DNA of 64,000 nt. Origin: Polytrichum commune. Lineage: Eukaryota > Streptophyta > Polytrichopsida > Polytrichales > Polytrichaceae. The stretch is taken from the NCBI GenBank assembly GCA_950295325.1, contig OX485805.1, positions 58,366,758 through 58,430,757 of the forward strand, given 5' to 3'. The notes under the pieces are model-generated. The model was not told the origin of the DNA. It ran no database searches and saw nothing but the letters and a program-made list of their open reading frames with translations. Below are positions 7,829 through 56,503 of this stretch, in pieces. The stretch's first letter is position 1. Every line of letters begins with the position of its first letter. A program made the position numbers and the translations under genes.

Positions 7829-7983
7829 TTGCGAACGAGCGTTCGTGAATGAAGGCTGCGGGGGCGGTGCGCATCATTTACGAGCGCTCGTTCGTGAGCG
7901 CGGCTACACGTACATTTACGAGCGGTCGTTCGCGAATGAGGTGGACAGTGGGTCGCAGCCTTTCACGAACGAGCGTTCGCGAA
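7829..7983. repeat. 3' palindrome cluster of gene copy A (four degenerate sites)
   Basis: Four members of the TTACGAACGNNCGTTCGTAA family lie at about 7829-7849, 7877-7897, 7915-7936 and 7962-7983, with centres AG, CT, GT and AG on the plus strand. These are the most decayed sites in the window: several outer TTA/TAA positions are replaced by gc or gaa, and two have CGAGCG in place of CGAACG in one half. They lie beyond the 3' end of copy A, matching the palindrome array beyond the tail of copy C at 16599-17393. Confidence 0.85.
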
Positions 7984-8266
7984 TGAGGTGGGTATGCAAG
8001 AATCAACATAATCTCATCAACATATACAACATACGAGAAGGGGTCGAGGGCAGAGAATTTGAAGCAACGCGATGCAGATAACATAGGCTCATATATTAAT
8101 CCGTTGAATATTTACATTTCTCACGTGATAGTCTATCACATTTTCCTAAGGCAAAATGATGCCGTGTCCTACAAAACTGTTCGGCCCTAAGGGGGGACCG
8201 CTGAAGAGGGCTCTCGCAAGGCCACTGGATGTCGATGAAGATAAAAACATCGCGATGTTAGAGAGG

Positions 8267-8286
8267 TTACGAACGCGCGTTCGTTA
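8267..8286. repeat. Palindrome site in intron 3 of copy A
   Basis: Site with centre CG inside the 90-bp intron 8225-8314. The homologous site in copy C (17653-17674) also has centre CG. Confidence 0.85.
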
Positions 8287-8373
8287 AAAAATGGTATTCT
8301 CAGAGGAGAGTTACCTCGTCATCGGGGGGAGGGGTAGCGGCGCTGGACCGAGCAGCAGGTCCCTCCTCAACGA

Positions 8374-8394
8374 TTAACGAACGCGCGTTCGTAA
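8374..8394. repeat. Palindrome site inside exon 3 coding sequence
   Basis: Site with centre CG lying in frame within exon 3 of copy A, where it is translated as VTNARSL. It carries one extra base in the left outer arm. No intron signals surround it. Confidence 0.85.
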
Positions 8395-8749
8395 CCTCCA
8401 CAGCTGCAGCCGCCTCTGTCTCCATGGCCTCTGCCTCACGCTCCGGTTGAGAGGCCTGTGTCGCCTGGATGCGCAGCGCGTCTTCTTCCTCGGCGCCCAG
8501 GTCGAGCGCGTCCATCCTGACATCCTCCATCCACGCCGCATGGGTTTCTTCCACGTCCATCCCATGCACCCCTGGTGCGTCATTGGGGCTCCCCTGCGTG
8601 TCCTCCACAATGACCATGTCAGTGTGTCGCGCAGAGTCATCGCCATGTCTGTCTACTACCATGGGGACGACGGTGAAAGACGATGCATCGGTGTATGAGG
8701 GCAGTCCTACCCTTGAAGGGGGAGGGGTGAGGACTGGAGGACCTGAAGA

Positions 8750-8771
8750 TTCACGAACGCGCGTTCGTAAA
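8750..8771. repeat. Second palindrome site inside exon 3 coding sequence
   Basis: Site with centre CG, translated in frame as LRTRVRES in the Pro-rich tail region of copy A. Confidence 0.85.
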
Positions 8772-9775
8772 TCCTCGTCCTCCTGGATGGCCGCCGCCAC
8801 AGCATCGTGGGAGGTGGTCGAGGGAACCTCTGGTGGCGGAGGAGTGCCAACAGGCGTGGGGTGGGGCGCCTGCTGGCGGGAAGGCCCTCCGGTGAACATG
8901 CCCGGTGGAGGGGATTGGGAGGGGTATCCTCCAGGGAAGGGGTAGGCCGGCTGGGGGGGCGCCGAGAAGCTCTGCATACGCTGGAGCATGGCGAGGATGG
9001 CGTCCGTCTTCTCGTTGGACTGCCTCAGCTCCTCCTGAATTGCGAACATTTTCTTGGCATTCTCCTCTGCCGCCTTCGCCATGTCCTCCTTCATCTTTTG
9101 CTCGAGCTTGGCGTTAAGCTCGGCGACGGACAACGCCTCCTCCTTGACCCGCTTGTTCTTGTCGAAGTCTACCCCCAGCTCGACCATGATCTCCATGTCG
9201 CCCTCGTCCTCATCGGAGACCTCGATGATTGCCCCCGGAGGCAGCTCCACGTAGGGGGTCTTCTTCATCCTCCGCCTCGTGTTGCGGTACTGGTCCAACG
9301 TCGGTCGGGACCGTTGGTCCAGAAGGTCGAGGTTCTCCATCTTGGGAACCACGATCGGCCTGGGCGACACGGATGTCGAGCATCCCCCGGGAGTGCCGAA
9401 TGCCTCCGCTCCAGACGTTCTCGCGGGGAGGACATCTTGGGTTGTCCCCGCCGACGACCCCGTGTATCCACCCGGAGTCCCTTGCACGTCGGATGGATTT
9501 CCCGACGGCGCCAAAATGCGGAGAGGAGTGACGTCCAAGGATCGGAGGATCGCCTCGACGTTGTAGGAGGGCGCGGGCTCGTCGTCGTCCGTCTCCATGG
9601 CGGGCATGCCTTCGTCGACGGGCATGTTGATGTCCGTCCTCGGGAGGGACATGTCCTCCAGGTCCATCGTGGAGGCCTTCGCCCTGTGCACGTGGAAGTC
9701 CTCCTCGTCGATGGCTTCAATGAAGCTGTTGACGACCAGCCCCAGCATCTGAGATTCAAGCAAATACGTTAGAAA

Positions 9776-9795
9776 ATACGAACGTGCGTTCGTAA
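9776..9795. repeat. Palindrome site near the acceptor of intron 2
   Basis: Centre TG on the plus strand. It lies about 28 bp from the 3' splice site of intron 2 (9749-9888) of copy A. Confidence 0.9.
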
Positions 9796-9847
9796 ACATC
9801 AACGACGAGAAACAATGTCATCAAACCCAAGACAAGTTGAGGTGAAC

Positions 9848-9869
9848 TTTACGAACGAGCGTTCGTAAA
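9848..9869. repeat. Palindrome site near the donor of intron 2
   Basis: Centre AG on the plus strand. It lies about 20 bp inside the 5' splice site of intron 2 of copy A. Confidence 0.9.
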
Positions 9870-11247
9870 TATTAGTTGGAGAGCTTACCATCGCAGCGTA
9901 CATGAACTTGCTGCCGCCACAAACGTTGTACACGGTCTCTCCGCTTATTGCCACGCTCTGCAAAACGGAGACGTAGAACTCCAACCTGAGTTCCATCGCC
10001 GGGAAGACAGTGTACAAGGTCTCCTGCAGCAGATCCTTGGGAGGGGGATGGGGGATGCTGTAGATCTTCTTGAACGTAGTGTTCGCCTTGACAGGGGCTC
10101 GCCCATTCCGCAGCGCGTTGTACGTCAAGAAGACGAGGCTGACCGCCCCCACCTGTTTGTTCCCCCTGGCCTCGTTGATGGCCACGATCCCTTCCGTCTT
10201 GGCGGGCACGTAAGTGCTGTGGAAGATGCTGTACTCAAATTTGATCGACTTCTCGTACAGGTCGACTACAGCAGAGAGCTTCTCCTGCTCGACTATCCAC
10301 AGCCAAACGTGAGGCTCCCTCATGTCCGGAGACTTGTGCTCCTTGAACTTGGCCATGAAGGGGTCGTAGAAAGGTATGTCCTTCCCCCCCTGCCTCGACG
10401 CACCGGGGATCCCCCTGAAATCGATCAGGGCAAATGGGCACCCCCGTCGATCCTCCCTCACCTCGGCCCTGCTCATGGTCCGGTCCCACTTGGAAAATGT
10501 CACCCTCTCCACTCCTTTTGTCAACAGACAAAATCTGGCCACTCCTTCGAATGTGGCCAACCTCTTCCGCGTCAAAAAGCTTCTGTATTGCTCCACCTCT
10601 TGGGGATCCGTCTCGGTTTTCTTTGTCCTCTTGTTCCCCTTCTGCTTCAAAATGGAGGCGTGCTCCTTGACAAGACAACGCATTGAGGGTCCGGAGATGT
10701 TGTAGTCGACCTTGAACATCTTCCAGCTGGCCCAATTAATGTCCCCGTCGGCTAGGATGAGTGCGTACTCTGGTATTAGGGCGCTCAACTCCCTCATTGC
10801 AGCAGTCTTCAGCTTGCGGTGTTCGCACCATTCCTTGATGGAATACGTGCCGGGCTTGTGTCTTGGCCTCTTCAAAAATATCTTCGGGTATGGGATGGTT
10901 CTTCCCACAGTGTTCCCAAGAAGATGCACCGCGCACCTCTGCAACTCGGACTCTGTTAACCCTTGAAGGGACCTGAAGAACTCCCTCAGTAGTGGAGGGG
11001 CCTCCCCGGTCTTCTCCGCGCTGTACTTCTCCTCGGTGTCGGGGTTGACCAGATCGCCCGAGCTGTGCGCATCAAAAAATTGTGTCCACAACTCCCAAGT
11101 GTCCCTGTTGCAACAGATGAGGCGGAGCTCACCCTTGAGCTCCAGGACAGACTTGGTTGTTGTAGACTTCATGTCGATGGAGGAGAACTTGTCCACCATC
11201 GCGTCGCAGAATGCCTGCAGCAAGAAAAACATCAGTAACGCACAAAA

Positions 11248-11267
11248 TACGAACGCACGTTCGTAAG
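11248..11267. repeat. Palindrome site near the acceptor of intron 1
   Basis: Centre CA on the plus strand, TG in gene sense. The matching site in copy B intron 1 (56485-56503) is also TG in gene sense. Confidence 0.9.
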
Positions 11268-11308
11268 TTTGAATGTCAAAGAACTTGAAAATTTGAATGT
11301 CAAAGATA

Positions 11309-11330
11309 TTTACGAACGTTCGTTCGTAAA
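11309..11330. repeat. Palindrome site directly at the donor of intron 1
   Basis: It begins within a few bases of the GTGAGT donor. The centre is TT on the plus strand, AA in gene sense. The copy B counterpart (56419-56441) is also AA in gene sense. Confidence 0.9.
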
Positions 11331-12659
11331 CTCACCTTCCATTGTGGAGACGGCGTCTTCGCGTTCTCCCTTTCTTTAGGGGGGCACCCGTGGGCGACCC
11401 AGACGTCCCTTGCAGCCACTATGTTGGCTGCCCACGACGCCTCGAAGGCCTTGATTTTGTTGCCGGAGTTGAGGAAGGTGGATATCTTCCGCAGCTTGTC
11501 CCAATCGTCCGACCACACCAAGAACGCCTTCCAGTAGCGCAAGTCCTCCTTCAGCTCATGCTGGAAGTTGTCGTCCTTGAGAATTATTTGGGACGCCTCC
11601 AAGCTGTGTTGGCCGTCTATGATCCAGAACTCTCCATTCTGGATCCGTGGCCAGTCCTTCTCCGTCGGACGGGATGTCAGCCCCTTCGGCATGACGCAGA
11701 CGGTCTGCCTGTCCCACTTGACGTTGTTCATTAGATTATTTATCTGCCACTTCACACCACCGCTTTCGCGAGAGCGAACCACCCATTTGTTGGAGGACAT
11801 CTCGCACTTGAAGCAGTCCACGTTGAATGTGAAGTGGCGTCCCATGGGCCAGCAATCCTTCGAGTAGTTGTTGAAGTCTCGAAGGATCCTCGTGGCCTTC
11901 ACAGCGTCAGGGTTCTCACCCTTTTTCAAGGGGGTGGGCATTACGACAGGCGAGGTCACCTCTGCGGTCTCCGTTACTCCCGATTTCTCCATCTCCTCCC
12001 TTGTCCTCTTCGATGGCGTGGAGTGTCTACTGGGGCCCTCCGTCGCCCTGCTAGCGGAAGGCACAGGCCTGGGTGCACTTCTAGATCCTCCTGCCCCTGA
12101 TGTGGATGGTTTCCTGGGGCTCTTCTTCTTCTTGTTTGCCTCAGTGACCACACTGTTGTATTTGGAGATGTTCAATGCCAGGGCGTTCAATTTCCTTGCA
12201 GTCCAGTATGGGCTCAACGCATATTTGGAGAAGAGGCCGTCCAGGTCGAAGTGCTTGGCATCTTCCGCTACGTTATTGGTGGCGTATTGGTAGGAGAAGG
12301 TATTTTTCTGAAAATGTAACAAGAGGTTGATATGATCCTTCTTGTTCTTCATGTCCAGAATTACATACTCCCCCTGGGCCTCTATGGACTCTATCTCCCA
12401 CGTCTTCATTTGAACCCACTGTTCGGGCTAGTCCGGTCTTGTCTCCAGCTCGTAGGTGAAGCGCATGCAGAAGAGGCCGTCCCCGATCTTCTCTGGCAGT
12501 GCCGTCCACTCCCCCATGAAGTCTTCCTTGGGGACATAGTTGTCGTTGCCGTTATCGTCTAACACCGACTCTGGGAGGCCATCGACCTTCACCGCGAACA
12601 TCTCAATGGCGCTTCTGCTTGATCTTGCCATCTGCAACATAATATAAACAATTAGTGAC

Positions 12660-13292
12660 TTTACGAACGAACGTTCGTAAGTGACATGCATATCCCACAG
12701 ACTACGCAGTGTTAATGCGTCTTTGCAATTGATGTAATTATATTTACGAACGTTCGCTCGTAAATGAGGGGTTGCAAGATCATATAAATTTTTAGTATTG
12801 AGTTTACGAACGAGCGTTCGTAAAAGATATGAAGATCAAAGAGACTACTCGTCATGAATGTGTTTGTAATATATTTGGTTATTTTTACGAACGATCGTTC
12901 GTAAAAGATATAGGTTTTATAGGTTTGGATTCATTTACGAACGTGCGTTCGTAAGTATGTCCATTTGGTCTATCTTTTCGGATATTTGGTTGATTTATCT
13001 TTCGTAAGTACATGTGATTTGTCTTATTGGTGTTCGCAAAATTGTATTTGTTCTTTAGATATTCATAGAGGTTCATATTTAAGTTAAGGTTCTTTCTGAG
13101 TGATATTTTGAGTATATTTACGAACGTGCGTTCGTAAATATAGATCATCTCAAAGAACGTGGAGTGCGTATTTACGAACGCACGTTCGTAAATGGAGGTT
13201 CGGTATGCAGTGTATGTCCATTTACGAACGAGCGTTCGTAAATGGAGGTGGGTATGCAGTGTATGTCCATTTACGAACGAGCGTTCGTATAT
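12660..13292. repeat. 5' palindrome array of copy A (nine sites)
   Basis: Nine sites lie upstream of the copy A start codon, at about 12660-12680, 12742-12764, 12803-12824, 12884-12905, 12933-12954, 13116-13139, 13170-13193, 13220-13243 and 13269-13292. Plus-strand centres in order are AA, TT, AG, AT, TG, TG, CA, AG and AG. The best sites are 24-bp palindromes with outer ATTTA/TAAAT. The site at 12742 has one arm base changed. Intervening DNA is AT-rich and not obviously repeated, except for a local duplication around 13200-13290. The array probably lies in a long 5' UTR intron between the promoter-like region near 14200 and the ATG at 12631. Confidence 0.92.
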
Positions 13293-13317
13293 GTGATGGT
13301 TTTGGGATCCCCTGTCC

Positions 13318-13372
13318 GTACATATATGTATTCGTGTATATACGAATACGTATATATATGTATATGTATATA
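13318..13372. repeat. Low-complexity TATA/CGTATA palindromic tract
   Basis: An AT-rich tract with nested TATACGAATA-type inverted repeats. A related tract with the same GTCCGTATATA elements lies in the other arm at about 24468-24505. Confidence 0.7.
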
Positions 13373-13775
13373 ACTCACTTATTAGTTACTCTGCTTGCAG
13401 CCGTGCCTGCAAAATTTTGGTCAGAATGATGCAATTCTTCAATCATAAAGCAATTGAGATGCAGAATGAGATGCAGAATGAAACATGAAGAAAAGAGTGA
13501 TAGTTCACATTGCATGTAACAAAAGAAATTGAATTCAAGAAGCAACATTTTCAGAATGTGAGAGGAGTTGGAAAGGATAACAAATTACATTGAAATGCTG
13601 CACACTGCAATCCCTGCTTCTTCTCTTTCTGAAAATCCCAGAAATCCTCACAACTGCACACTCAATTGCCTTTCAAATGCACACTCAGATAACTCTCTAA
13701 TGCAGACCTCAAGCCTTCACAGCTTATATACAAACCCTAGTATACTCCTATGTACACAAAACTCACAACCTTGTA

Positions 13776-14110
13776 GCTCTCAAGCTTCTGAACTCTTAAG
13801 CAAACCCTAAACTCTCAAGCTTCCCTAAACTCTCAAGCTTCACTTCTGAAGCTTCCCTAAACTCTCAAGCTTCACTTCTGAAGCTTCCTTAAACTCTCAA
13901 GCTTCAACTCTAAAGCTTCCTTAAACTCTCAAGCTTCTAAAGATCACCCTCAAGCTCTCAATCCGAAACTCTGAAGCTTTCCTACTCAAGCTCTCAAGCT
14001 TTTGAAACTCACAAACTCTCACACTGAAAGCTTTCACAAACTCACAAGCTTTCACAATGAAAGCTTTCACAAACTCAAAAGCTTTCACACAAGCTCTCAA
14101 TCTGAAATCT
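13776..14110. repeat. Degenerate tandem repeats rich in CTCAAGCTT
   Basis: Many short units of the type AAACTCTCAAGCTTC alternating with TGAAGCTTCC, with HindIII-like AAGCTT palindromes throughout. A shorter equivalent is present in the other arm around 22885-23090. Confidence 0.8.
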
Positions 14111-14159
14111 CTCAAAACTTGCAACAAAACTAATTTAAAACTTCAAGACTAAAAAAAGC

Positions 14160-14300
14160 AAGAGCTTCGCTCTCTAAACGCTCCGCTCCTCCTCTCCTCG
14201 AAATGACAAATGAGGAGAAGAGGAAGGGGCGCGGGGAGGTAGGTGCGCCGCTAGGGTTTCCCAGCACCTGCCACGTGGCACAACTCCACTGGCTAGGGTT
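14160..14300 (-). promoter_or_regulatory. Promoter / 5' UTR-like block for copy A
   Basis: A GC-rich block with a G-box CACGTG (14272-14277) and, 12 bp away, a telo-box-like AAACCCTA on the minus strand (14252-14259). They are followed in gene sense by a pyrimidine-rich CTTCTCCTC stretch resembling a plant 5' leader. The same G-box, telo-box and CTTCTCCTC order is present in the inverted copy at 22780-22860, so the block is conserved. The transcription start is not proven. Confidence 0.5.
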
Positions 14301-14306
14301 GGGAGA

Positions 14307-14390
14307 GAGATGGGATGGGATGGTATGGGAGGTGATGGGAAGGGATGGGATGGGATGGGATGCGATGGGAGATGGGAGATGGTTGTATAT
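14307..14390 (+). repeat. GGGAT-type G-rich repeat, G-quadruplex capable
   Basis: At least eight GGG runs are separated by AT or a few bases on the plus strand. The other arm has a corresponding C-rich run on the plus strand (22705-22730). It lies just upstream, in gene sense, of the promoter-like block. Confidence 0.75.
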
Positions 14391-14972
14391 TGGAACCCTT
14401 CATGTTATTCTCATGCTTTGACATATTTATATGTAATGGACGCGTTTAAGGCATTAACTTGACAAGCTTAGTTCAAATACATGAATTTTACTCGTTTTAT
14501 TTCCTTAGTACCTCTACATTTGGATTCCTTGTAAACATATTTTAGGAAAATATGCTCAGTTAATTCGTAATAAACAATGCATGTCACTCCCTAGGTTGTC
14601 AATGTAGAATCCACCCCCAAAGATATATATATGGTGTTTTAAAATATAGTTTATGTAAGAGCTAGATATCTTTCAATTAATTCGATGGTTCCTCAAATAA
14701 ATATTACATGCAAAAAAGAATTCATAATAATATGAGATTGCGCAGAGTTGCTATACGATAGGATGTCAATTCAAGTTCTAATATTAGGTGTTAGCTTGAA
14801 CTAATGCATTTCTGGAGTGGTCAACTATTTTGCTAGCATCAACTACGAGCTTGCGATGAATGAAGTTAATGCAATTACAAGGGTTTTTGAGGAGTCAATA
14901 TTGTTTGTGTGTGTAATGTATCCTAGTAACAATCTAAAACCTAAACCCAAATACCACATACACAACTTTCAC

Positions 14973-15041
14973 AAACCCTAAACCCCTAAACCCTACCCCC
15001 AAACCCTTACCCTAAACCCTAACCGCAAACCCTAAACCCTA
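14973..15041 (+). repeat. Telomere-like CCCTAAA repeats
   Basis: Roughly nine perfect and imperfect CCCTAAA units on the plus strand. The inverted counterpart TTTAGGG is at 21815-21872, so the two tracts face outwards around the central segment. Confidence 0.85.
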
Positions 15042-16020
15042 CATCCCTGCATCTTTTTATCTTACCAACCTTTCTTATATGTGGCCATGTTGTTTTCTGA
15101 GGGCAGGTCAAATTGGTCTACCAATGTTGGTTGGATGGAGAATGCTTAATTCCGTTCATAACAACTATAATAATTGATAATGATGGCAATTGTCAATTTC
15201 ACATTCCAAATTAATAGATTTGAGATAAAACTTTGGTTTAAGTGATAAGTGAAATTTCAAATATTCCCACTTTCACCTTAATAGTTCTGAGTGAAATTTC
15301 ATCACACAATCCACGATCTTATTATAATAACATGCATGTCTTAAGACTTCAATTTATATCAACACTTTAAGCTATGATGATGCACATCCTTCTCATAGGA
15401 TGCAAAACATATATTAATTGTAAGTACATACTATTGTATGCACCATTCCAAATTAATAGTGCATTTCCCCAAACCCTAAAAGTCTATTTCCAATAGGACC
15501 TCAACTCATTTAATCATGTGTCAACTTAAACTAACAATCGAACAATGCATTCAACTATAAATATCACCAATGATCTAATAAACATTTAACCAATGTGTAT
15601 CCGTACCCTTACAACAAGTGGACGAAAATTCAATTTCCAATAGGACGTCAAACACATAATAATTGTAACTATGATTCAACGTTACGGTAGCTAGTATGGT
15701 TTCAAGTCTCAATGATCATTACGCTATCATACTATGCAGCATTACAAATTGATTAATCCTTCCTACTCATGCCATTTTAATTCCTTATTTTCACACCTAG
15801 ATACCATTTGAAAGAAGACCTAACTTACATATATTATTAGGTATAATTAGTTCATAGTGTCCTCAATCTACCCTAGTGCAAGCCATTATGGATTAACCCG
15901 ATTTTTTAGTTGTATTCATGCACTTGGTGACCATATTACGGTCATTTTTTGATGTGAAACATATGATACCTATAATTTTAGGGGCGTCCGCAACATGTTT
16001 CTTAGCCACTCTGACCTCAT

Positions 16021-16022
16021 TG

Positions 16023-16062
<40 letters not shown>
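16021..16062. repeat. (TG)n(TA)n microsatellite
   Basis: A TG run passes into a TA run. Confidence 0.9.
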
Positions 16063-16063
<1 letters not shown>

Positions 16064-16179
16064 CTATGACTTCGACATTCATAACTTTATTAGGCATTAA
16101 TTGTCAATTAACTTGGACTTCATACCTTAGTCGCAAATCATTAAATATTCAATGTTAACCATCTCCATATTTAGACATT

Positions 16180-16225
16180 ATGTGTATATATATATATATA
16201 TATATATACGTATATACATATATTT
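16180..16225. repeat. (TA)n microsatellite
   Basis: A TA dinucleotide run interrupted by CG and CA. Confidence 0.9.
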
Positions 16226-16598
16226 CGATGAGACCTTGGTCACAACTAAGGTGTGCAACCGATTTATATATTTTCAATATGTTGGCGTGCATGCAAGGCA
16301 TGTTCCATACATGACAATGCTATTTATATAATTCCGCATGGATGGAATGGGAGATTGTTAGGTCAAAGAAGGCGGCGGGAATCTGCTTTTTAAAAAGCAT
16401 CCAAGGGATTTTGAACCAGCGGGGTGAAGTACTTAAAGCTCTTCCCCCCACAACAAAGCTCTTTTCAGCGGCACATGCAAGTGTGCGCTCTACAGACCTC
16501 ACCGAACGCGCTCAAGCCATTTCGTGTGCGCCAACCCTACACCACCCAGGTACAGTACAGGCTGTACCTACCGCATATACCGCCGTAAATACCGGAAC

Positions 16599-17230
16599 TT
16601 TACGAACGCACGTTCGTAAAGATGAAGAGCTTCAGGTTTAGACAAACGATTCGGACCTGGACATGGCAAGGATTTACGAACGCGCGTTCGTAAATTCCAC
16701 ATGAGAGCATGTTCTGGATTGGGCTACTCATATGGATAGTCACATGCACGTAATCCATCTCAGTTATTTACGAACGTGCGTTCGTAAATATGCCTTCGAG
16801 GACCATGCAGACATATTTGACCCTTATCTATTGGTACCTGATGGTCGGTAATTTACGAACGTGCGTTCGTAAATCCCACAGGAGATCATGTTTTGGATTG
16901 AGCTACTCATGGATAGTCACATGCACATCATCCATGGCATTTATTTACGAACGTGCGTTCGTAAATATGCCTTCGAGTTTCATACATACATATTTGACCC
17001 TTGTCTATTGGTACCTGTTGGTCGGTAATTTACGAACGTGCGTTCGTAAATCCCACATGAGAGCATGTTCTGGATTGAGGTACTCATATGGTTAGTCACA
17101 TGCACTTAATCCATGACAGTCATTTACGAACGTGCGTTCGTAAATATGCCTTCGAGGATCATACATACTTATTTGACCCGTATCTATTGTTACCTGATGG
17201 TCGGGAATTTACGAACGTTCGTTCGTAAAT
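16599..17230. repeat. Tandem array with eight palindrome sites, period about 178 bp
   Basis: Three tandem units of about 178 bp start at 16672, 16851 and 17028, with a partial fourth at 17207. Each full unit contains two palindromes. Sites are at 16599-16620, 16672-16695, 16766-16789, 16851-16874, 16943-16966, 17028-17051, 17122-17145 and 17207-17230, with centres CA, CG, TG, TG, TG, TG, TG and TT. The spacers GAGAGCATGTTCTGGATTG and CATATTTGACCC recur in each unit with a few differences. A single half-site is seen at about 17294-17305. Confidence 0.9.
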
Positions 17231-17369
17231 ACATGTCATTATTGTCTACGCATCCAGCAACACATCTTCATTCATGCACATCAGTATGGCAGTAATTTAC
17301 GAACACAGAATAGCAAGAAAAATATGCTCATCGCTCGTCCGTGAAGGATGTGAACACGGGGTCGCACCC

Positions 17370-17770
17370 ATTTACGAACGTCCGTTCGTAAATGGGTAGG
17401 TACGCAAAAGTCAACATAATCAAATTCACAATATGGAGGTGCTCAGTGTTCAAAATATTGTTGGAGTTGATTCAGGCATCATCTGCAGATTTGCTAATTT
17501 TGTGCGTATGGACAAGTGTTCTCTTGTGATAGTATATCGCGCATGTTCCTAAGTCAACATGGTACTTTGACCTACAAAACCGATATTCCTCAGGGTGCTC
17601 TCATTTGAGGGATCTCGAAGGCCGCCGGATGTACATGGAGAAGTTACTGAGGTCACGAACGCGCGTTCGTAAATGCATGTGGCGTTCTCGGATTTCTGAT
17701 TTCGTCGTCGGTTGTATGTGGACAGGCGCTGGTCCGAACAGCAGGGCCCTCCTGGACGACTACCGAGTGT
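17370..17770 (-). pseudogene. 3' tail remnant of a third ParB-like gene copy (copy C)
   Basis: On the minus strand this segment aligns with the end and 3' flank of copy A (about 7990-8380). The C-terminal EGPA(A/V)R motif and DDE just before intron 3 are recognisable, as are the intron 3 palindrome (17653-17674, centre CG) and the final-exon stretch around TTTTGTAGG. Final-exon homology continues, but the acceptor AG is lost and an in-frame stop appears. A further palindrome with centre TC lies at 17370-17393. Exons 1, 2 and most of 3 are missing; the DUF7869-like gene begins where they should be. The copy is in the same orientation as copy A. Confidence 0.65.
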
Positions 17771-17818
17771 TCTCCTCTTTGTCCATGTATTGTTTACATT
17801 AGTGAACAACCTAGACGT

Positions 17819-20800
17819 ATGCTTAAAACGTTTTTTTGGGACGCGCGTTCGTCTTTGTGCGTGAGGTTCTCCAATGGTGCACCAAAATTTGTTTGTCAAT
17901 TTTGGGCCATTTATCTCCACATATATTCTATCCTCTCTTGTATGCATTGCGGTGGTGGTTGGGTTGATCATGTCCTGGTGGTTGGTCTAGGCTGTATGGC
18001 GTTGCATGTGGGTGATAGTTCATTGGAGTTGTCGACGTATGCATCGTCATCCGATGCTGAATGTGAACTGTCTTCCCCGTCGGCAGATAGTAATGGTGTG
18101 CCAAACGTGAGGGGGGTGTTTGTGGATACATCCTCCCATGAATCTTTGGAAGTCCACGAACAATCTCTGCATTCCGGAGATGACCACGATGACATTCCGT
18201 TGTGTGCCGGTTTCGGGAGGGAGCAATGGGTTGGCCTTGATGTCGTTCTACTCAACGAGGTTGGTGTCCCGGTGGCAGATGGTATATGTAGAAACTCCAA
18301 TCCCCGTGATTGTGTCGATGCCAACGCCCTAGGTCTCGATGATGTTGGCGTGTGCATCTTGAACTCTTTGCTTCCGGTAGAGTTCCCGGTGACATGGAGA
18401 TTTTCCTTGCGTCGATGGCCGCTTCGTCGAGTTCTACATGAGGAAGTGAGTTTGTGGGATCATGAGCGGCGGCATAAGCAAACACAATTAGCTTTGTTGG
18501 CCACAACACGTCCTCGCAAAGGCCTCCGTAGATATGATTCAAACCGTGTGCCTCGCGGAGATAAGGAGCGTCGACGGGATCGGCTTTTGGGGGACGAATC
18601 TATCCGTCTAGTGTCCGGCAAGGATTGTTGCGCGAGGAAATGTTGCCAATTTTTCCCGCGGGAGAAAATTAGATCTCTGCGTCAAGAGATGTGGCTTGCG
18701 GATTTTCGTATGAGGTCGGCTAAGAAACTCGAGGTCCACAGAAATTTGCACCTTGATACCCATGGGCATAAGGTGGTGACACTTGAGAATGTTGATGTGT
18801 GTTGTACAGCGTGGTATACCATCCACGCCGTCTCCAAGGCTGACTTTTATAGGTTTCGAAAATATTCATCGTTGGGTCGCCGCTCTCGATTTCATGGCAA
18901 CTCGGGCACAAAGAAACCTAGGGAGGCTACACTGCAAGCGTCCGCGACACTATCCACCATCATAGTGCCATTGGCCGATGCAATGCCCCACAAGACGAGG
19001 ACATTGTCGTCAGGGGAGGAGGTTGTTCAAATGGTGTTGCCCACGGGCACAAAATGGAAGAACATCTTAACGGACATCAATGAAGTGGGTCGCATAGCGG
19101 GATGTGGGCCCATTTCTTTGTCCAAGTTGAGTGTGATTAAAAACCAGCAGTTTGCGGAATACATTCTGAAAAGACCCGGGGACAAGTTCGCTAGATGTAC
19201 GACGTGTGAAAAATACAAAGGTCTTCGAGACGCCCACCCCATAGGCACTGAATCTCATTCCAGACACCAGAAAAAATATATTGAACATGTCAACAATCAA
19301 GAGGCACACCGTCAAGATTACTATAAGAATCGTGCTCTATCCATAATGAGGCCCACAGAGGTTCTAACAGTCATCCATGATAAAATGGACCACGCCAAGA
19401 CCGCATGCCCTTGTTATGCACGCAAAATAAAGGCCACGGATGGTCTCTTCAAGTTGCCCGTAGCTGTCACAGGTTTGTATGAAATCACAACTACGTGTTT
19501 AAAGTCTATCCAATTTTCTTGGGTGTGTTTGGCAAATGTCCAACTCCATACATCCGTTTAGTGGTTATTTGATTATTTTGGTCACGCATCGTTTGTTTTT
19601 TCCAGGTATGATTGCCCACGGCCATGGGGACGTAAAGTATGCCCATTATGGTTTGGATTTTTACCCTGGGGATGCTAACCACACGGTGGGTTCATTTGCA
19701 AAACTGTTGCGCGATCTTGAGAAGCCACCGGTACATTCTTCCCGTGCACTTTTTGATGGTTGTGGAACCACATCCCTTTATGAGGCAGTGCTTTTGGGGA
19801 AGGAGGTTTGTATGTCGTCATTGCCAGAACCACCCGGAGAGCCCATTTGTGCAAAACCATTGCCTCCAACTCTCCACGTTCAACTTGATAATTGTGCGAA
19901 GGACAACAAATGTCGATACGTATTTTGTTTTTGGTCATTGCTCGTGGCGAAAGGAATCTTCAAGGAGGTGTTTGTGTCTTTCTTGATGGTGGGACATACA
20001 CACGACGACATTGATGCATCATTCGGACGGTGGAGCATGAAGTTGCATGAAGAAGATTTTCCAACCATACCTCTTCTTATGAAATCGTATATGGATTTGG
20101 ACCATATGCCAGTAATTCCGCACTTGATTGAGGAAGTACCAAATTTCAAGGCCTTCATCAAGCCATACATGTTGAAGGGAGGGGACCGTTTGGTGGGGCA
20201 TACCAAAGCACAACAATTCCGATTTTATATGAGGGATGATGGTCTCCCGGCCATGCAATTCAAGCTTTTGTGCACATCTCCTAATTGGGGCCCGGATGAT
20301 GGTATACTCGTATGGCGTCAAGACAATGATGGGAAATGTTTGGTCCCGGATGGGGAACCAAAGCCTTGCAAACCCGAACCCATGAGGAATGGGCCGGAAA
20401 TCATCAAAGGCATATCCGGATTCATTGAATATTGGAAAGAGTTGTGCGAGGAGGACATCACAAGACGTGTTAGAGATACCCATGAACCGTTGATCGCGTA
20501 TTGGGATCGCATTCGCTCAGCCTTGATGACACTTGGTGGCGACACCCGTACGACTTTGACACAAGGATTTTGGCCACAAAGTCGTTTGACGGTTGTCGAG
20601 TCCGATACTATGTTTTTCAGCAATGGAGACGTTCGTGAAGAGTTCGCAATGGACGAGCATTACGTTGGCCCTGCCCGCAATCGACCGGCACCGTCGTTTC
20701 GTGTAGGTGTTGATTGCCATGAAGGGTATTTGGTCCTCGTACGAGCTGGGGATGAGGAGCATCCCAAGCCAATTTGGTTGGTAAAAGCATTGTCTTCACC

Positions 20801-21125
20801 CAATTTTGTTCGAACTAGCCCCAACTTTCGTCAAATTGAGGTGGAATATTGTCGTCCAAGCACTAAAGACCACAACGTGCTCCGCACTTATTTAGGTTGG
20901 GACACCAAAAAGAATTTTAAGTGGACAGTGGACTCAGCGTACACACCGGTTTGGATAAACACGGATACTATACTTTGTGCTTGGAAGCCGCGCAAAGGTT
21001 CCAACACAGAAGCAATGACCATCCCCCAAAAACATATAGATTTTGCCAAAGACAACTTGGCACGTATTGCAGCTGCGGAAAATGACGCCGAGAATGGATA
21101 TGAAGCGGAAGATGGAGATGGGTAA
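17819..21125 (+). CDS. DUF7869-like GHTHDDID-family protein, two exons, intact
   Basis: Exon 1 ends at 19472, a 133-bp GT-AG intron spans 19473-19605, and exon 2 is 19606-21125 (TAA). The join gives LPVAVTGMIAHGHGDVKYAH. There is no internal stop over about 1,050 codons. The first ATG is at 17819, but the first residues overlap decayed copy C sequence; ATGs at 17942 or 17996 (998 residues) are more plausible. Visible motifs are a Cys-rich KDCCARKCCQFF (about 18615-18655), CTTCEKYK (about 19198-19225), HDKMDHAKTACPC (about 19376-19415), VQLDNCAKDN (about 19879-19908) and GHTHDDIDASFG (about 19991-20026). The last motif is typical of widespread uncharacterised eukaryotic proteins with DUF7869-like domains. 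The spaced acidic motifs would suit an RNase H-like transposase or nuclease fold, but that is inference. The palindrome array lies immediately upstream. Confidence 0.75.
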
Positions 21126-21540
21126 ACATAACATAGGTGAAAGTTAACGGCGGGAAAAAACATTAGTACTTAGTAGTCTTGGTTTTTAATAGACTTAGTA
21201 GACTTGTCACACTCCATTGTGGTATACGTTTGGGATGTGCCATCCAAAACCATAAGAACCTTACTTATGGGATGCGCACCCCAAACTCTATAATGATATA
21301 AACCATTTGTTTTTTATATTCGCTTGTTATTTTCCACATGGAGTTCACGTTTTCATTATAATTGCAATTTTCTATTTTTAGTATTAGGAATATTCTTTAC
21401 GTGCGAATTTTTAAATTGTCATGTTCTTGATGTTCCCAACATTCCATATGCCCACAATATTGGCATCCCAAACTATGGGCATATTTTATTTTGAGACTTT
21501 CAAAAGTCTCCGATTAACGAATATAGTGTTACTTATGACA
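21126..21540. other. 3' flank of the DUF7869-like gene
   Basis: An AT-rich stretch with several AATAAA-like signals but no defined terminator. Homology with the left arm begins beyond it. Confidence 0.35.
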
Positions 21541-21814
21541 AGTCACACTTAAAATTATGTGTTTTACATCCTGTCAGAAGTATGTGGATGCTTGTATTAG
21601 ATAAAAGTGTTGAGTTACAGTAAAGTCTTAAGACATGCATGTTATAATGATCCCATGTTTGGATTATGTGATCAAATAGCACTGAAGAGTATTAAGGGGG
21701 AAGATGGAGCATTTCAACACTCACTTTTCGCCCAAACCAAAGCTTTCCCCGAAATCTATTAATGTTGAATCTCAAAATAACAATTGGCATGGTATAAAAA
21801 AAATGTAGGGATGC

Positions 21815-21872
21815 AGGGTTTAGGGTTAGGGTTTAGGGTTTGTGATAGTTGTGTATTAGGGTTTAGGGTTTT
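21815..21872 (+). repeat. Telomere-like TTTAGGG repeats
   Basis: Two short blocks (21815-21842 and 21855-21872) of TTTAGGG/TTAGGG units, the inverse of those at 14973-15041. Confidence 0.85.
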
Positions 21873-22719: not shown

Positions 22720-22880
22720 ATCCCCCCACGTGGAGCGTCGCCAATGAAAGGACGGCATTGGGCCGTCGCCATTGGCAGAACGCCACGTGGCAACCAAGGG
22801 TAAACCCTAACGGCGCCGGCCACCACCCCGCGGCCCTTCCCACTTCTCCTCATTCTCATTTGGAACAGAGAGGAGGAGGA
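22720..22880 (+). promoter_or_regulatory. Promoter / 5' UTR-like block for copy B
   Basis: G-boxes CACGTG lie at about 22726-22731 and 22784-22789, a telo-box AAACCCTAA at 22802-22810, then GC-rich DNA and CTTCTCCTC. The order and spacing correspond to the block at 14160-14300 in the other arm. A C-rich run upstream (22705-22730) matches the G-rich repeat there. Confidence 0.5.
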
Positions 22881-23195: not shown

Positions 23196-24168
23196 TGTCG
23201 CAACCCTTGCTAGGTCCCTTAATAATCTTGCCAATTTTCGTTTCTAGCAAAGGTTACGAGCGCTAACCATTCGCATTCCGCCATGCTAATGGATAGCTCC
23301 TCTTACCCCGGACCAATAGTTCATAGGAGGGAACCAACCCTCCTACTTTGCTTTCGGGACTCACCCCTTAATCGGTAACCCATTTCCCCAATGTGGACTT
23401 CCATCCATGGAAGTCCAATCCTATGTTGATCATCGCGTTGCCGGAGCAACACTACAACAACCCGAACCATACTAGGCAACTATGGCCTCACAATGGGCCA
23501 ATGCCCATGGAGGCCTTGCCGTTCGGCCTCGGGTGGGTGAGGCCACACCACCTCACCCATATAAGCCTCTAGGACTCTACACGGAGCCCCTACCCCACCG
23601 CCAACCAACCTCTTGTCTCTCTACCAAGAGTTGGGGCCAAGTGGACATTTTCCCTTAGCTGCTGGGCCTAGAACCCCCCCAGCAGCTTCAGACCATCATA
23701 ACTTCCTTGTATGATGTCTGATCATAACAACCAACCGCTCCATCCTCATCTACGCTTCACGTAGATGCCGATGGACTCCTCGCTTGCCCCATTCGGGCAA
23801 GTCTTGAGGAAGTTATGCCTGTTTGAACCTTGGCAGTCCCGGGAATCACTCCCAGGCACTGCTGCACCAGGGCGCTGTCCCGGGACAGCACCCCACTCAA
23901 ATGGCCATAACTCCTAGCTCACACCTCCGATTGAGGTGATCTTGAGCATTCTAGAATCACCACGCCATGAGCTACGCATAGCTCATGGCCTCACCCTCAT
24001 GCCTCCTAGTCTTTGTGGGTGGGAGGCGTTCCCAACGCCCGGGGCCCTCACCCACACTAGGATCACTTGGGCCCTCTCACCAACGGCGCCACAAGTCCCG
24101 GGTGTCACTCCGGGGTCCCCCTTGTGCCCATGGTGTTTCGGGCACTCCTCATGGAGAGGTGCGCGACA
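23196..24168 (-). mobile_element. Solo LTR S2 (chromovirus-like family)
   Basis: A complete 973-bp LTR in minus orientation (TGTCGCAACC to GCGCGACA on the plus strand). It is flanked by ATTTC (23191-23195) and ATTTG (24169-24173), a target duplication with one mismatch. There is no adjoining internal sequence or primer-binding site. It lies in the 5' region of copy B. Confidence 0.9.
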
Positions 24169-24530
24169 ATTTGTGTGTTGTTGTGTGGTTTTTTCAGCAA
24201 GGGAGAACCAATTTTTGTCAAGGAACACTTCAATGTGAGTACATTCCATCCAACTTGCCTCACAATCCACATCCTGAATTGGTTCATTGTAGATTTCCTT
24301 TTGCATTGTTTGAAGGGTGAGCCTTGGCAGGTTTTGCATGCAATCTGAGCTTTGCTAATCATTCTGAAGCTCAGATATGTTGTGTTTTTCATTTTTTGTT
24401 CAATTCAATCGTTCTGACCACGCACTTGCAAGCATTCTACACATGAATAAGCACATTCTACCCTATATGTATTCGTATATATACGAAACCGTATATATAC
24501 GGACAAGATGTGAACAGCCAAACCAGCCAC

Positions 24531-24865
24531 ATTTACGAACGTGCGTTCGTAAATGCGAATGCATTGCCTAACCCAACCCTTTTTACGAACGCTCGTTCGT
24601 AAATACCCCTACCCAAAGCCCATGCGAAGGAGTTTTACGAACGCGCGTTCGTAAATACCCTTCACCAACAACACAAATTCAAAACTTTACGAACGCTCGT
24701 TCGTAATATACGATACAAAACAACATACACCAACATACTGTCAGTGATAAACACACTAAGTGAAATCATTCAAACCAAATATCAATCTTACGAACGCACG
24801 TTCGTAAAAACGTGAAATGTAAATTAAACCGACCAAAAACTATTTACGAACGATCGTTCGTAAAT
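24531..24865. repeat. 5' palindrome array of copy B (six sites)
   Basis: Sites lie at 24531-24554, 24582-24604, 24634-24656, 24686-24706, 24788-24807 and 24842-24865, with plus-strand centres TG, CT, CG, CT, CA and AT. This is the counterpart of the 12660-13292 array. The order of centres is only partly conserved, and spacer sequence is largely diverged. Confidence 0.92.
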
Positions 24866-24947
24866 ATGAACAAAGGCCTCTAGATCAAATATATGAAATG
24901 TTGTACAGCCAAACCAACAATGCAAACAACATTGTCTGCGGCCTAGT

Positions 24948-25921
24948 TGTCGCAACCCTTGCTAGCCCCCCCTTGACCATCTTGCCAATTTTCAATTCTA
25001 GCAAAGTTACGAGTCGCTAACCCTTCGCATACCGCCATGCTAATGGTTAGCTCCTCTAACCCCGGACCATTAGTTCATAGGAGGGGAACCAACCCTCCTA
25101 CTTTGATTTCGGGACTCACCCCTTTAATCGGTAACCACTCCTTAGATGTGGACTTCCATCCATGGAAGTCCAATCCCTTGTTGATCATCGCGTTGCCGGA
25201 GCAACACTACAACAACCCGAACCATACTAGGCAACTATGGCCTCACAATGGGCCAAAGCCCATGGAGGCCTTGCCGTTCGGCCTCGGGTGGGTGAGGCCA
25301 CACCACCTCACCCATATAAGCCTCTAGGACTCTATGTGGGGCCCCTACCCCACCGTCAACCAACCTCTTGTCTCTCTACCAAGAGTTGGGGCCAAGTGGA
25401 CATTTTCCCTTAGCCGCTGGGCCTAGAAGCCCCCACAGCTTCAGACCATCATAACTTCCTTGTATGATGTCTGATCATAACAACCAACCACTTCATCTTC
25501 ATCTACGCTTCACGTACATGCGGATGGACTCCTCACTTGCCCCATTCGGGCAAGTGGTGAGGAAGTTATGCCTGTTTGAACCTTGGCAGTCCCGGGAATC
25601 ACTCCCAGGCACTGCTGTACCAGGGCGCTGTCCCGGGACAGCGCCCCACTCAAATGGCCATAACTCCTAGCTCACACCTCCGATTGACGTGTTCTTGAGC
25701 ATTCTAGAATCACCACGCCATGAGCTACGCATATCTCATGGCCTTACCCTTGTGCCTCCTAGTCTCCGTGGGTGGGAGGCGTTCCCAACGCCCGGGGCCC
25801 TCACCCACACTAGGATCACTTGGGCCCTCTCACCAACGGCGCCACAAGTCCCGGGTGTCACTCCGGGGTCCCCCTTGTGCCCATGGTGTTTCGGGCACTC
25901 CTCATGGAGAGGTGCGCGACA
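24948..25921 (-). mobile_element. Solo LTR S3 (chromovirus-like family)
   Basis: A 974-bp LTR in minus orientation with a perfect 5-bp target duplication CTAGT (24943-24947 and 25922-25926). It lies in the presumed 5' UTR intron of copy B, between palindrome sites. Confidence 0.93.
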
Positions 25922-25933
25922 CTAGTGGTACCA

Positions 25934-25956
25934 CTCACGAACGAACGTTCGTAAAT
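25934..25956. repeat. Palindrome site just upstream of the copy B start
   Basis: Centre AA in gene sense. The positional counterpart in copy A (12660-12680) is TT in gene sense, the same site in flipped orientation. Confidence 0.88.
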
Positions 25957-27228
25957 ACTTCACTAAAAGTGTACATCATTGTACAGATGGCTAGATCAAC
26001 CAGGAGTGCCATCGAGATGTTCGCAGTGAAGGTGGACAGCCTGCCACAGTCAGTGTCGGATACAAACGACAATGACAATTACGTCCCAAAGATCGACTTC
26101 ATGGGGGAGTGGACAGCGCTGCCAGAGAAAACCGAAGACGGTCTTTTTGTCCTGCGCTTCACCTACGAGCTGGAGACGAGACCGGACCAGCCAGAACAAT
26201 GGGTGCAGATGAAGACATGGGAAATAGAGTCAATAGAGGCCCAGGGGGATTACGTCATTTTGGATATGAAAAACAAGAAGGACCACATCAACCTCCTCTT
26301 GCACTACATGGAGCACTCCTTCTCCCACAATTACGCCATTCTGACCGTGGGAGAAGAGGCCAAGCATTTCAACCTGCAGAATCACTTCACAAAGTACGCT
26401 TTGAGCCAGTACTGGACAGCCAGAAAGTTAACTGCCTTGGCTTTAAACATCTCCAAGTATAACAGTGTGGTTGCCGAGGCGAACAAGAAGAAGAAGAGTC
26501 CTAGAAAACCTTCTGTGTCCGGGGCAGGAGGTTCGAGAAGTGCACCCCGGCCTGTGCCATCCGCGAGCCGGGGGACGGACGGGCCCAGCAGACAGTCCAC
26601 GCCATCCAAAAGGACAAGGGATGACTTGGAAAAATCAGGTGTAACAGAAACGGTGGAGGTGAGCTCGCCTCCCGTTATGCCAATTCCTTTGAAGAAGGGA
26701 GAAAACCCGGACGCCGTGAAGGCTACCAGAATCCTGAGAGACTTCAACACTTACTCAAAGGATTGCTGGCCCATGGGGAGGCACTTTACATTCAACGTTG
26801 ATTGCTTCAAGTGCGAGAAATCGCCAAACAAGTGGGTGGTGAGGTCTCGTGAGAGCGGGGGTGTCAAGTGGTAAATTAACAATTTGATGAACAACGTCAA
26901 GTGGGACAGGCAGACCGTTTGCGTGATGCCGAAGGGCTTCACGTCCCGTCCGACTGAGAAAGATTGGGCCCGGATCCAGAATGGTAAGTTCTGGATCATA
27001 GATGGACAGCACAGCCTAGAGGCGTCGCAGCTCATCCTGAAGGACGATAACTTCTAGCATGAGCTGAAGGCGGACCTGCGCTACTGGAAGGCCTTCTTGG
27101 TGTGGTCTGACGACTGGGACAAGCTCCGAAAGATTTCAACTTTCTTGAACTCAGGCAATAAGATAAAGGCGTTTGAGGCATCATGGGCAGCAAACATAGT
27201 GGCTGCACGAGATGTCTGGGTGGCACAT

Positions 27229-40914: not shown

Positions 40915-40916
40915 AG

Positions 40917-53830: not shown

Positions 53831-53861
53831 CTCAAAGTGTTAGCTCAAATATTGGAACCCT

Positions 53862-53873
53862 GCTCTGATACCA
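53862..53873 (-). promoter_or_regulatory. Primer-binding site of E3
   Basis: Reverse complement of TGGTATCAGAGC. Confidence 0.9.
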
Positions 53874-53875
53874 AG

Positions 53876-54848
53876 TGTCGCAACCCTTGCTAAGCCCCCT
53901 TGACAATCTTGCCAATTTTCAATTCTAGCAAAGGTTACGAGCGCTAACCATTCGCATTCCGCCATGCTAATGGTTAGCTCCTCCTACCCCGGACCTTATA
54001 GTTCATAGGAGGGAACCAACCCTCCTACTTTGCTTTTGGGACTCACCCCTTAATCGGTAACCATTCCTTAGATGTGGACTTCCATCCATGGAAGCCCAAT
54101 CCTATGTTGATCATCGCATTGCCGGAGCAACACTACAACAACCCGAACCATACTAGGCAACTATGGCCTCACAATGGGCCAATGCCCATGGACGCCTTGC
54201 CGTTTGGCCTCGGGTGGGTGAGGCCACACCACCTCACCCATATAAGCCTCTAGGACTCTACGCGGGGCCCCTACCCCACCGTCAACCAACCTCTTGTCTC
54301 TCTACCAAGAGTTGGGGCCAAGTGGACATTTTCCTTTAGCTGCTGGGCCTAGAACCCCCTAGCAGCTTCAGACCATCATAACTTCCTTGTATGATGTCTG
54401 ATCATAACAACCAACCACTCCATCTTCATCTACGCTTCACGTAGATGCCGATGGACTCCTCACTTGCCCCATTCGGGCAAGTGGTGAGGAAGTTATGCCT
54501 GTTTGAACCTTTGCAGTCCCGGGAATCACTCCCAGGCACTGCTGTACCAGGGCGCTGTCCCGGGACAGCGCCCCACTCAAATGGCCATAACTCCTAGCTC
54601 ACACCTCCGATTGGGGTGTTCTTGAGCATTCTAGAATCACCACGCCATGAGCTACGCATAGCTCATGGCCTTACCCTTGTGCCTCCTAGTCTTCGTGGGT
54701 GGGAGGCGTTCCCAACGCCCGGGGCCCTCACCCACACTAGGATCACTTGGGCCCTCTCACCAACGGCGCCACAAGTCCCGGGTGTCACTCCGGGGTCCCC
54801 CTTGTGCCCATGGTGTTTCGGCCACTCCTCATGGAGAGGTGCGCGACA
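53876..54848 (-). repeat. 5' LTR of E3
   Basis: Identical by eye to 47802-48774, and followed by CCCAC. Confidence 0.94.
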
Positions 54849-55368
54849 CCCACCATGTCCTCAAGAAGCCTTAGGGACTTAAACAAGGCATCCACCACCC
54901 GCTTTTAAAACCCCACCTAAAACGATGCATTTCTTAGAAAGCTCGTCTGTTTTAGGTGTATCCTTCATTTGTGCGTTTGAATAGCGCACATAGGCCTTAA
55001 GAGGCCCCGGGTGCCTCATTAGCACCAAGTTCATTTCAACATCCGAACCTTCAAAGCATCTCGAATTGAAATTCCAATCCAACATTAATACCCTCCAAGG
55101 TTTTGGGTGCTTTCGGTATTCTAGGCCCCAAATGTTTTTTGAGGTTTGCGGGAGCCCTTTTCAAAGCACTCCTCCATTTTCCTTACCGAATCCACCCTCA
55201 TGCCCACCATTACCATTAAAATCAATGGTATGGTCAAACTCCATTTGCACATGATCTTTGTTCCAATTTGAGCCTCACAACCTTTTGGAAACCCCGGGCT
55301 CACCATCACAAACCGTATTTTTGATAGCCATGTTTCCCTCAAAGTGTGAGCTCAAAATTTGGAACCCT

Positions 55369-55380
55369 GCTCTGATACCA
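55369..55380 (-). promoter_or_regulatory. Primer-binding site of E0
   Basis: Reverse complement of TGGTATCAGAGC, two bases from the 5' LTR. Confidence 0.9.
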
Positions 55381-55382
55381 AG

Positions 55383-56355
55383 TGTCGCAACCCTTGCTAG
55401 CCCCCTTAGCAATCTTGCCAATTTTCTTTTCTAGCAAAGGTTACGAGCGCTAACCCTTCGCATACCGCCATGCTAATGGTTAGCTCCTCTTACCCCGGAC
55501 CATTAATTCAAAGGTGTCGAACCAACCCTCCTACTTTGCTTTCGGGACTCACCCCTTAATCGGTAACCCATTTCTTCGATGTGGACTTCCATCCATGGAA
55601 GTCCAATTCTATGTTGATCATCGCGTTGCCGGAGCAACACTACAACAACCCGAACCATACTAGGCAACTATGGCCTCACAATGGGCCAAAGCCCATGGAG
55701 GCCTTGCCGTTCGGCCTCGGGTGGGTGAGGCCACACCACCTCACCCATATAAGCCTCTAGGACTTCACGCGGGGCCCCTACCCCACCGTCAACCAACCTC
55801 TTGTCTCCCTACCAAGAGTTGGGGCCAAGTGGACATTTTCCTTTAGCTGCTGGGCCTAGAACCCCCCAGCAGCTTCAGACCATCATAACTTCCTTGTATG
55901 ATGTCTGATCATAACAACCAACCACTCCATCCTCATCTACGCTTCACGTAGATGCCGATGGACTCCTCACTTGCTCCATTCGAGCAAGTCTTGAGGAAGT
56001 TATGCCTGTTTGAACCTTGGCAGTCCCGGGAATCCCTCCCAGGCACTGCTGTACCAGGGCGCTGTCCTGGGACAGCGCCCCACTCAAATGGCCATAACTC
56101 CTAGCTCACACCTCGGATTGAGGTGTTCTTGAGCATTCTAGAATCACCACGCCATGAGCTACGCATAGCTCATGGCCTTGCCCTTGTGCCTCCTAGTCTT
56201 CGTGGGTGGGAGGCGTTCCCAACGCCCGGGGCCCTCACCCACACTAGGATCACTTGGGCCCTCTCACCAACGGCGCCACAAGTCCCGGGTGTCACTCCGG
56301 GGTCCCCCTTGTGCCCATGGTGTTTCGGGCACTCCTCATGGAGAGGTGCGCGACA
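55383..56355 (-). repeat. 5' LTR of E0
   Basis: Shares rare variants with 27229-28201 (CCATTAATTCAAAGGTGTCG), confirming that these two LTRs are a pair. It is followed by CACAT and then by the remainder of copy B exon 1. Confidence 0.95.
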
Positions 56356-56418
56356 CACATGGTTGCCTTTCAAAAGAGAGAGAGAACGCGAAGACCCAGT
56401 CTCCTCAGTGGAAGGTAT

Positions 56419-56441
56419 GTTTACGAACGAACGTTCGTAAA
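56419..56441. repeat. Palindrome site at the donor of copy B intron 1
   Basis: It starts within five bases of the GTATGT donor, with centre AA. Same position and same gene-sense centre as copy A 11309-11330. Confidence 0.9.
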
Positions 56442-56484
56442 AGTCACTGCATTTCAATTTTCTTTTTTTCATGAAGTTTCCATT

Positions 56485-56503
56485 TCACGAACGTGCGTTC
56501 GTA
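56485..56503. repeat. Palindrome site near the acceptor of copy B intron 1
   Basis: Centre TG. Same position and gene-sense centre as copy A 11248-11267. The outer TTA on the left is changed to TCA. Confidence 0.9.

Follow-up and report, generated by a model that had tools for sequence, protein, structure and literature searches.

In Arabidopsis, VANDAL transposons carry VANC motifs, which lie densely in the non-coding parts of a single transposon family; they occupy accessory-gene introns as well as the region upstream of the transposase gene, in arrays that grow by tandem duplication (PMC5735166). According to the available part of that report, motifs and accessory proteins diverge together between families, and both binding and demethylation have been demonstrated experimentally (PMC5735166). 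In Ectocarpus, the 21.5-kb Sola1 transposon Sola1-1_Ec32 carries a ParB-like/N4C-N6A methyltransferase gene opposite its transposase gene, and the accessible text proposes that the encoded protein binds and modifies its own transposon DNA (PMC12477816). Here we describe a DNA transposon from a 64,000-nucleotide stretch of the moss Polytrichum commune (contig OX485805.1, positions 58,366,758 to 58,430,757; hereafter the window), which encodes a putative ParB-methyltransferase and carries arrays of a 20-bp palindrome. On sequence and structure-prediction grounds, these palindromes are probably family-specific dimer-binding sites of the element's own ParB-methyltransferase, with a likely use in anti-silencing or control of the element.

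The moss system resembles VANC in its dense short motifs, in their placement in introns and upstream regions and in the joint divergence of motif and protein. It differs in that the VANC21 motif, as given in the text available, is a 9-base non-palindromic sequence (YAGTATTAY) found in one orientation, whereas the moss site is a palindrome with a free 2-bp centre; the proteins also differ, and in the moss system binding is a prediction. With Sola1-1_Ec32 it shares a giant DNA transposon and a ParB-like plus methyltransferase protein encoded on the strand opposite the transposase, a likeness of description and not of compared protein sequences. However, the Ectocarpus methyltransferase is predicted to be active, whereas exon B of the moss gene lacks DPPY in 52 of 52 sequences, and binding sites are not mentioned in the available portion of the Ectocarpus report (PMC12477816). 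The moss element would thus add the probable sites, their matched divergence and the disappearance of the catalytic motif. Searches of the literature on ParB-carrying, Sola or N6-methyladenine transposons yielded no report of such palindromic binding sites, the one on ParB and N6-methyladenine in algal transposons leading only to the Ectocarpus study (PMC12477816), and no paper was found on DUF7869 or on ParB-like moss transposons. Bacterial ParB–parS systems likewise combine a ParB-like domain, which is putative in the moss protein, with clustered palindromes, but their palindrome is a different one and no ParA was seen in the moss element.

The palindrome TTACGAACGNNCGTTCGTAA, built from the 9-bp arm TTACGAACG, matches the window exactly 25 times and was absent from 100 dinucleotide shuffles (mean 0.00). 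At up to three mismatches there are 39 sites, spanning 7829 to 56504 (shuffle mean 0.03), and none in the rest of the window, in full agreement with a preliminary description of this DNA. Our recount of the central dinucleotides returned the figures given there (TG/CA 14, AG/CT 9, CG 6, AA/TT 6, AT 2, GT/AC 1 and TC/GA 1), and the outer AT said to extend many sites to a 24-mer is present on both sides in 17 of the 39. Four sites, at 7829–7982, have worn arms with two or three mismatches each. The genome (407.8 Mb, 64 contigs) holds 3737 exact sites, against 0 for the reversed, non-complemented control. When pairs of arms were counted at any gap from 0 to 12 bp, 3737 of 3739 were separated by exactly 2 bp; the spacing is therefore nearly fixed although the letters of the centre are free. 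The sites are clustered and not evenly spread: of the 100 matches listed among the 3737, 98 have a listed neighbour no more than 10 kb away.

Thirty of the 39 sites fall within one DNA transposon of ∼ 16.1 kb (element 1) and the other nine within a second, interrupted copy (element 2). Comparison of the window with ten 10-kb loci by Blast revealed a single repeated unit with inverted ends, AACACTATATTCGG.../AACACTATATTCGT..., at 5424 and 21530. At up to two mismatches, the pattern of these terminal inverted repeats (TIRs) occurs at 450 and 444 places genome-wide (control 0). Two other genomic copies match element 1 over its full length at 99.4% and 99.1% identity, and the family has therefore been mobile recently. 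About ten elements in all were read at length. Ten copies with both ends were compared, five further probes having been dropped because the second end was absent at the expected distance; six of the ten have a perfect 4-bp target-site duplication (CATA, CTAA, ACCT, AAAG, TGAA and TAAA), one (c1_5765) has AAAT offset by one base, and the window copy, L030 and L036 have none. The features of element 1 are as follows.

5424–21530, strand not assigned: element 1, the whole DNA transposon, 16,107 bp, with terminal inverted repeats at both ends and full-length copies elsewhere
5424–5452, plus strand: left terminal inverted repeat, AACACTATATTCGGTATTTGGAGACTTTT
5845–6812, minus strand: orf4, approximate bounds, from the open reading frame list (frame 5845–6792)
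6928–7703, minus strand: NLI-interacting-factor/FCP1-like HAD phosphatase gene, approximate start (Pfam PF03031, E 1.6e-11, above the cut-off)
7829–7982: four worn palindromes between the phosphatase and ParB-like genes
8267–8286: palindrome right after the stop codon of the ParB-like gene
8300–9748, minus strand: ParB-methyltransferase exon C, bounds read from splice signals; palindromes at 8375 and 8751
9749–9888, minus strand: intron 2, splice signals read by eye; palindromes at 9776 and 9849
9889–11214, minus strand: exon B, helical part and predicted DNA-methyltransferase-like fold without DPPY (model md6269b0a1e1e)
11215–11335, minus strand: intron 1, splice signals read by eye; palindromes at 11247 and 11310
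11336–12632, minus strand: exon A, ParB-like part with a DGQHS motif; in-frame stop near 12433 in the window copy
12661–13290: array of nine palindromes upstream of the ParB-like gene
13291–16599: central AT-rich spacer, similar between the arrays in copies with and without genes
16600–17672: array of ten palindromes upstream of the DUF7869 gene
17819–21125, plus strand: DUF7869 gene, putative DDE transposase; exon 1 to 19472, intron 19473–19605, exon 2 from 19606
21502–21530, minus strand: right terminal inverted repeat, AACACTATATTCGTTAATCGGAGACTTTT

The 30 sites of element 1 comprise the arrays of nine and ten, two sites per intron of the ParB-like gene, a further five in or near the gap below that gene and two in its coding tail. 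Twenty-eight are thus non-coding, while 56% of the element codes. The left end is separated from its nearest site by ∼ 2.4 kb, and the right end by ∼ 3.9 kb; a terminal repeat of a miniature inverted-repeat transposable element was discarded as an explanation, the palindromes being internal. Compared with a copy that is ∼ 82% identical, the arms are 91.4% identical (447/489), the centre 66.7% (36/54) and the 40-bp flanks 63.3% (912/1440), and CpGs are retained at 95 of 109 positions in arms and 20 of 53 in flanks, figures that an alignment may raise by favouring the pairing of sites with sites. The palindromes also persist where genes do not. The gene-poor copy c1_635 retains the spacer, the arrays on its two sides and both TIRs, and 43 sites fall within 9.5 kb; a second such copy, c1_34336, of which one end is known, has 38 sites in 9.7 kb.

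These observations bear on two readings of the palindrome itself. The preliminary description had offered a dimeric protein-binding site, which our data support, or a site that a recombinase cuts at a crossover of 2 bp. A palindrome with a free central dinucleotide is what the latter would look like; however, neighbouring sites differ in their centres, the centre drifts as the flanking DNA does, a Pfam scan of nine open reading frames (ORFs) from the element region found no recombinase, and the ends of the element are TIRs with 4-bp duplications and not palindromes, so that we give crossover sites a practically negligible probability. Alternatively, the palindromes could work in RNA, as transcript hairpins in introns and leaders, and every site can indeed pair with itself or with another in the same intron. 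Most sites lie outside the gene models, in the upstream arrays, they persist in gene-poor copies, and a centre fixed at 2 bp leaves too little room for a hairpin loop without opening of the closing pair; we consider a role in RNA highly improbable.

Within element 1 the ParB-like/methyltransferase gene is divergent to the DUF7869 gene. The DUF7869 protein is recognized by Pfam (PF25273, E 3.8e-40), and the predicted fold of a Ceratodon homologue suggests a DDE/RNase-H-like core; the role of transposase suits this protein better than that of palindrome binder. For exon A, a ParB relationship is indicated by matches to PHROG 1033 in 10 of 36 sequences (best E 0.0013) and by the DGQHS motif; Pfam gave nothing above its cut-off, with DUF6551 appearing weakly in 9 of the 36 (best E 0.027), and a comparison of exon A with PDB sequences gave no useful match. 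None of the three exons contains an above-threshold domain in Pfam or NCBIfam scans. The predicted fold of exon B (model md6269b0a1e1e) resembles a beta-class N6A/N4C DNA methyltransferase. None of eight motifs of the catalytic motif IV pattern, (D/N/S)PP(Y/W/F), occurs in any of the 52 exon B sequences; the strand end corresponding to motif IV, a position matched through secondary structure and not by residue alignment, reads DFR in 51 of them and DFC in one.

Sister families indicate which protein may read the palindromes. Metagenomic ORFs of exons A and B extend past the splice site, and the intron palindromes therefore appear in translation in the ORF tails. In a clade 44–46% identical these tails read FTDARP, from which the arm TTACGGACG was predicted; the predicted palindrome occurs at 1310 places in this genome (control 0). 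An element of this family, c1_31277, has TIRs with one mismatch each and a TAAA duplication. Exon 2 of its DUF7869 gene is 85% identical to that of element 1, the ParB-methyltransferase exons are 43, 54 and 30% identical, and GGACG palindromes lie in its arrays and introns at matching places. This genome also holds a more distant clade (P0203), present at no fewer than 90 places with 76–79% identity. At the four places sampled, the palindromes of its introns and of the upstream array have the form (G)TTTGGGTCG-NN-CGACCCAAA(C) instead. The 10 kb upstream of one of these places holds a DUF7869 gene 62–66% identical, a TIR with 3/28 changes and 20 sites of the clade's own arm spaced 78 bp apart; palindromes of the other two families are absent there. 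This third arm (TTTGGGTCGNNCGACCCAAA) is known from L048–L057 only. A fourth arm, TTACGGCCG, was read from ORF tails and occurs 27 times. On the exon B tree, an arm could be read for 21 of the 52 rows, and the distribution of these arms requires 4 changes, compared with 7–11 in 1000 shuffles. Across the three families, TIR and transposase are kept, and the ParB-methyltransferase and the palindrome arm (TTACGAACG, TTACGGACG or TTTGGGTCG) differ together. The preliminary description had linked the palindromes to both ParB-like and DUF7869-like genes: the sites do lie inside a transposon that carries both, and the arm tracks the ParB-like protein, DUF7869 being the less likely binder.

The termini of En/Spm (CACTA) elements contain CACTA, and these elements have many subterminal sites for a second element protein, TnpA. 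The moss element shares CACTA in its termini and many sites for a probable second element protein; it differs in its 4-bp instead of 3-bp duplications, its internal sites and its other genes. By analogy with the subterminal repeats of En/Spm or Ac, the palindromes could be bound by the DUF7869 transposase or a helper of the transpososome, for excision and insertion. This would suit their retention in gene-poor copies with TIRs and the fixed positions of the arrays within the element. Yet the sites are internal and not subterminal, the arm differs where DUF7869 and the TIR are kept, and its largest departure is seen in the family whose ParB-methyltransferase has diverged furthest; we therefore regard transposase sites as unlikely. 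The sister arms also bear on the likeness of the inner CGAAC-N4-GTTCG to a LexA box, noted in the preliminary description. The likeness is real in the window family but absent from the TTACGGACG and TTTGGGTCG arms, the Pfam scan of the nine ORFs found no LexA-like protein, and a LexA operator was dropped.

We suggest instead that the ParB-methyltransferase is most likely the palindrome binder, acting as a dimer. Each of two subunits would contact one 9-bp arm in a symmetrical arrangement, around a centre fixed in length and free in sequence. Arrays before both divergent genes, in the ParB-methyltransferase introns and flanking the spacer would load many copies of the protein onto the element, on autonomous and non-autonomous copies alike and within its own family only. 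As the methyltransferase-like domain lacks DPPY, the putative ParB-methyltransferase most likely acts by binding and not by methylating. Bound protein may counter host silencing, so that the element stays accessible and expressed, may tune its own transcription, or both. Operators of a pure autorepressor, pacing or shutting down the two divergent genes in the manner of bacterial repressors, would explain the arrays upstream of both genes and the sites in both ParB-like introns; gene-poor copies keep and even enlarge their arrays, where promoter control alone would need none, and we hold such a purely repressive role to be rather improbable. Because these copies retain the arrays, the benefit would be in cis to the element and not just to promoters. 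The analogy with VANC motifs, in introns, upstream regions and tandem growth, makes anti-silencing the likeliest use of the bound protein, and taken by itself this role is a tentative proposal, somewhat short of an even chance.

Several points weigh against this assignment. Exon C, orf4 and the phosphatase diverge between families too, and, all genes of the element being linked, a regulator with its gene elsewhere might in principle show the same clade pattern through hitch-hiking. Pfam detects neither the ParB-like nor the methyltransferase domain by sequence, and Foldseek matches of both predicted models have E > 0.001. Two element 1 sites lie in coding sequence, in exon C. The 23 sites of c1_31277 include 17 symmetric GGACG palindromes, four mixed ones, one GAACG and one other. 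Finally, in the youngest pair, the window copy against c1_5765 (L019+L020, 99.4% identical), the arms (533/540) are slightly less conserved than the flanks (1799/1806), and site CpGs are retained at 116 of 122, most arm changes being CpG loss. The sites of that copy are therefore not protected from decay, and the CpG losses suggest that they were methylated and decayed.

A 4-bp target-site duplication is a feature of the Sola (Sola1) superfamily, and six of the ten end pairs show it perfectly. A review table, in the part available, lists 'Physcomitrella Sola1' (PMC9033089), and for these two reasons a Sola1-like assignment is plausible. The CACTA (En/Spm) label was dropped: the ends read AACACTA, but the duplications are of 4 bp and not 3 bp. 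Among the other genes of element 1, orf4 has no match in Pfam or NCBIfam and weak tblastn matches in the sister family, and the transposon-borne phosphatase gene (6928–7703) is 61% identical there.

Element 2 holds the ParB-like gene a second time, together with nine sites; it lies at 24.5–27.2 kb and 56.4–57.9 kb and is split by a repeated sequence resembling a long terminal repeat (LTR).

24533–24863: six palindromes upstream of the ParB-like gene of element 2
25935–25954: palindrome beside the ParB-like start
25987–27228, plus strand: ParB-like exon A, with ∼ 80% identity to this exon's region in other copies; in-frame stop at 26872
56421–56504: intron 1 with two palindromes, separated from exon A by the LTR insertions

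The LTR-like repeats of ∼ 1 kb that interrupt element 2 (23196–24168, 24942–25925, 27229–28203 and 57870–64000) are ∼ 95% alike among copies in the window and elsewhere and contain no palindromes. The right end of element 1 adjoins the spacer of element 2 with no 4-bp duplication, so this site may have been rearranged. Telomere-like CCCTAAA/TTTAGGG stretches lie inside the central spacer of both elements (14980–15040 and 21818–21870), and an AT-rich TATACGAATACGTATATA-like sequence, possibly another conserved cis site, adjoins an array in both (13330–13370 and 24465–24510).

How transposons with a common transposase stay separate and resist host silencing is an open question outside Arabidopsis. 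With chances that we judge evenly balanced, the families described here may embody a code of self-recognition, in which ParB joined to a catalytically lost methyltransferase forms a re-programmable DNA reader, each family having its own 9-bp arm in an invariant 9-2-9 palindrome (TTACGAACG, TTACGGACG, TTACGGCCG, TTTGGGTCG); as part of the same evenly poised reading, families with common transposase and inverted repeats would act on themselves only. One genome offers a candidate reader together with its sites, and no fewer than three protein–arm pairs that match, which makes specificity directly testable by swaps of proteins and sites. The ParB-methyltransferase proteins might also be used as a collection of orthogonal DNA-binding modules. 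Should the methyltransferase domain prove inactive, a bacterial modification enzyme would have become nothing more than a reader of DNA; should it instead work through an unusual motif, plants would gain a DNA modification that is new. If the self-recognition reading is true, it would represent a system for anti-silencing or self-marking that is convergent with VANC, assembled from parts of bacterial plasmid and restriction-modification systems.

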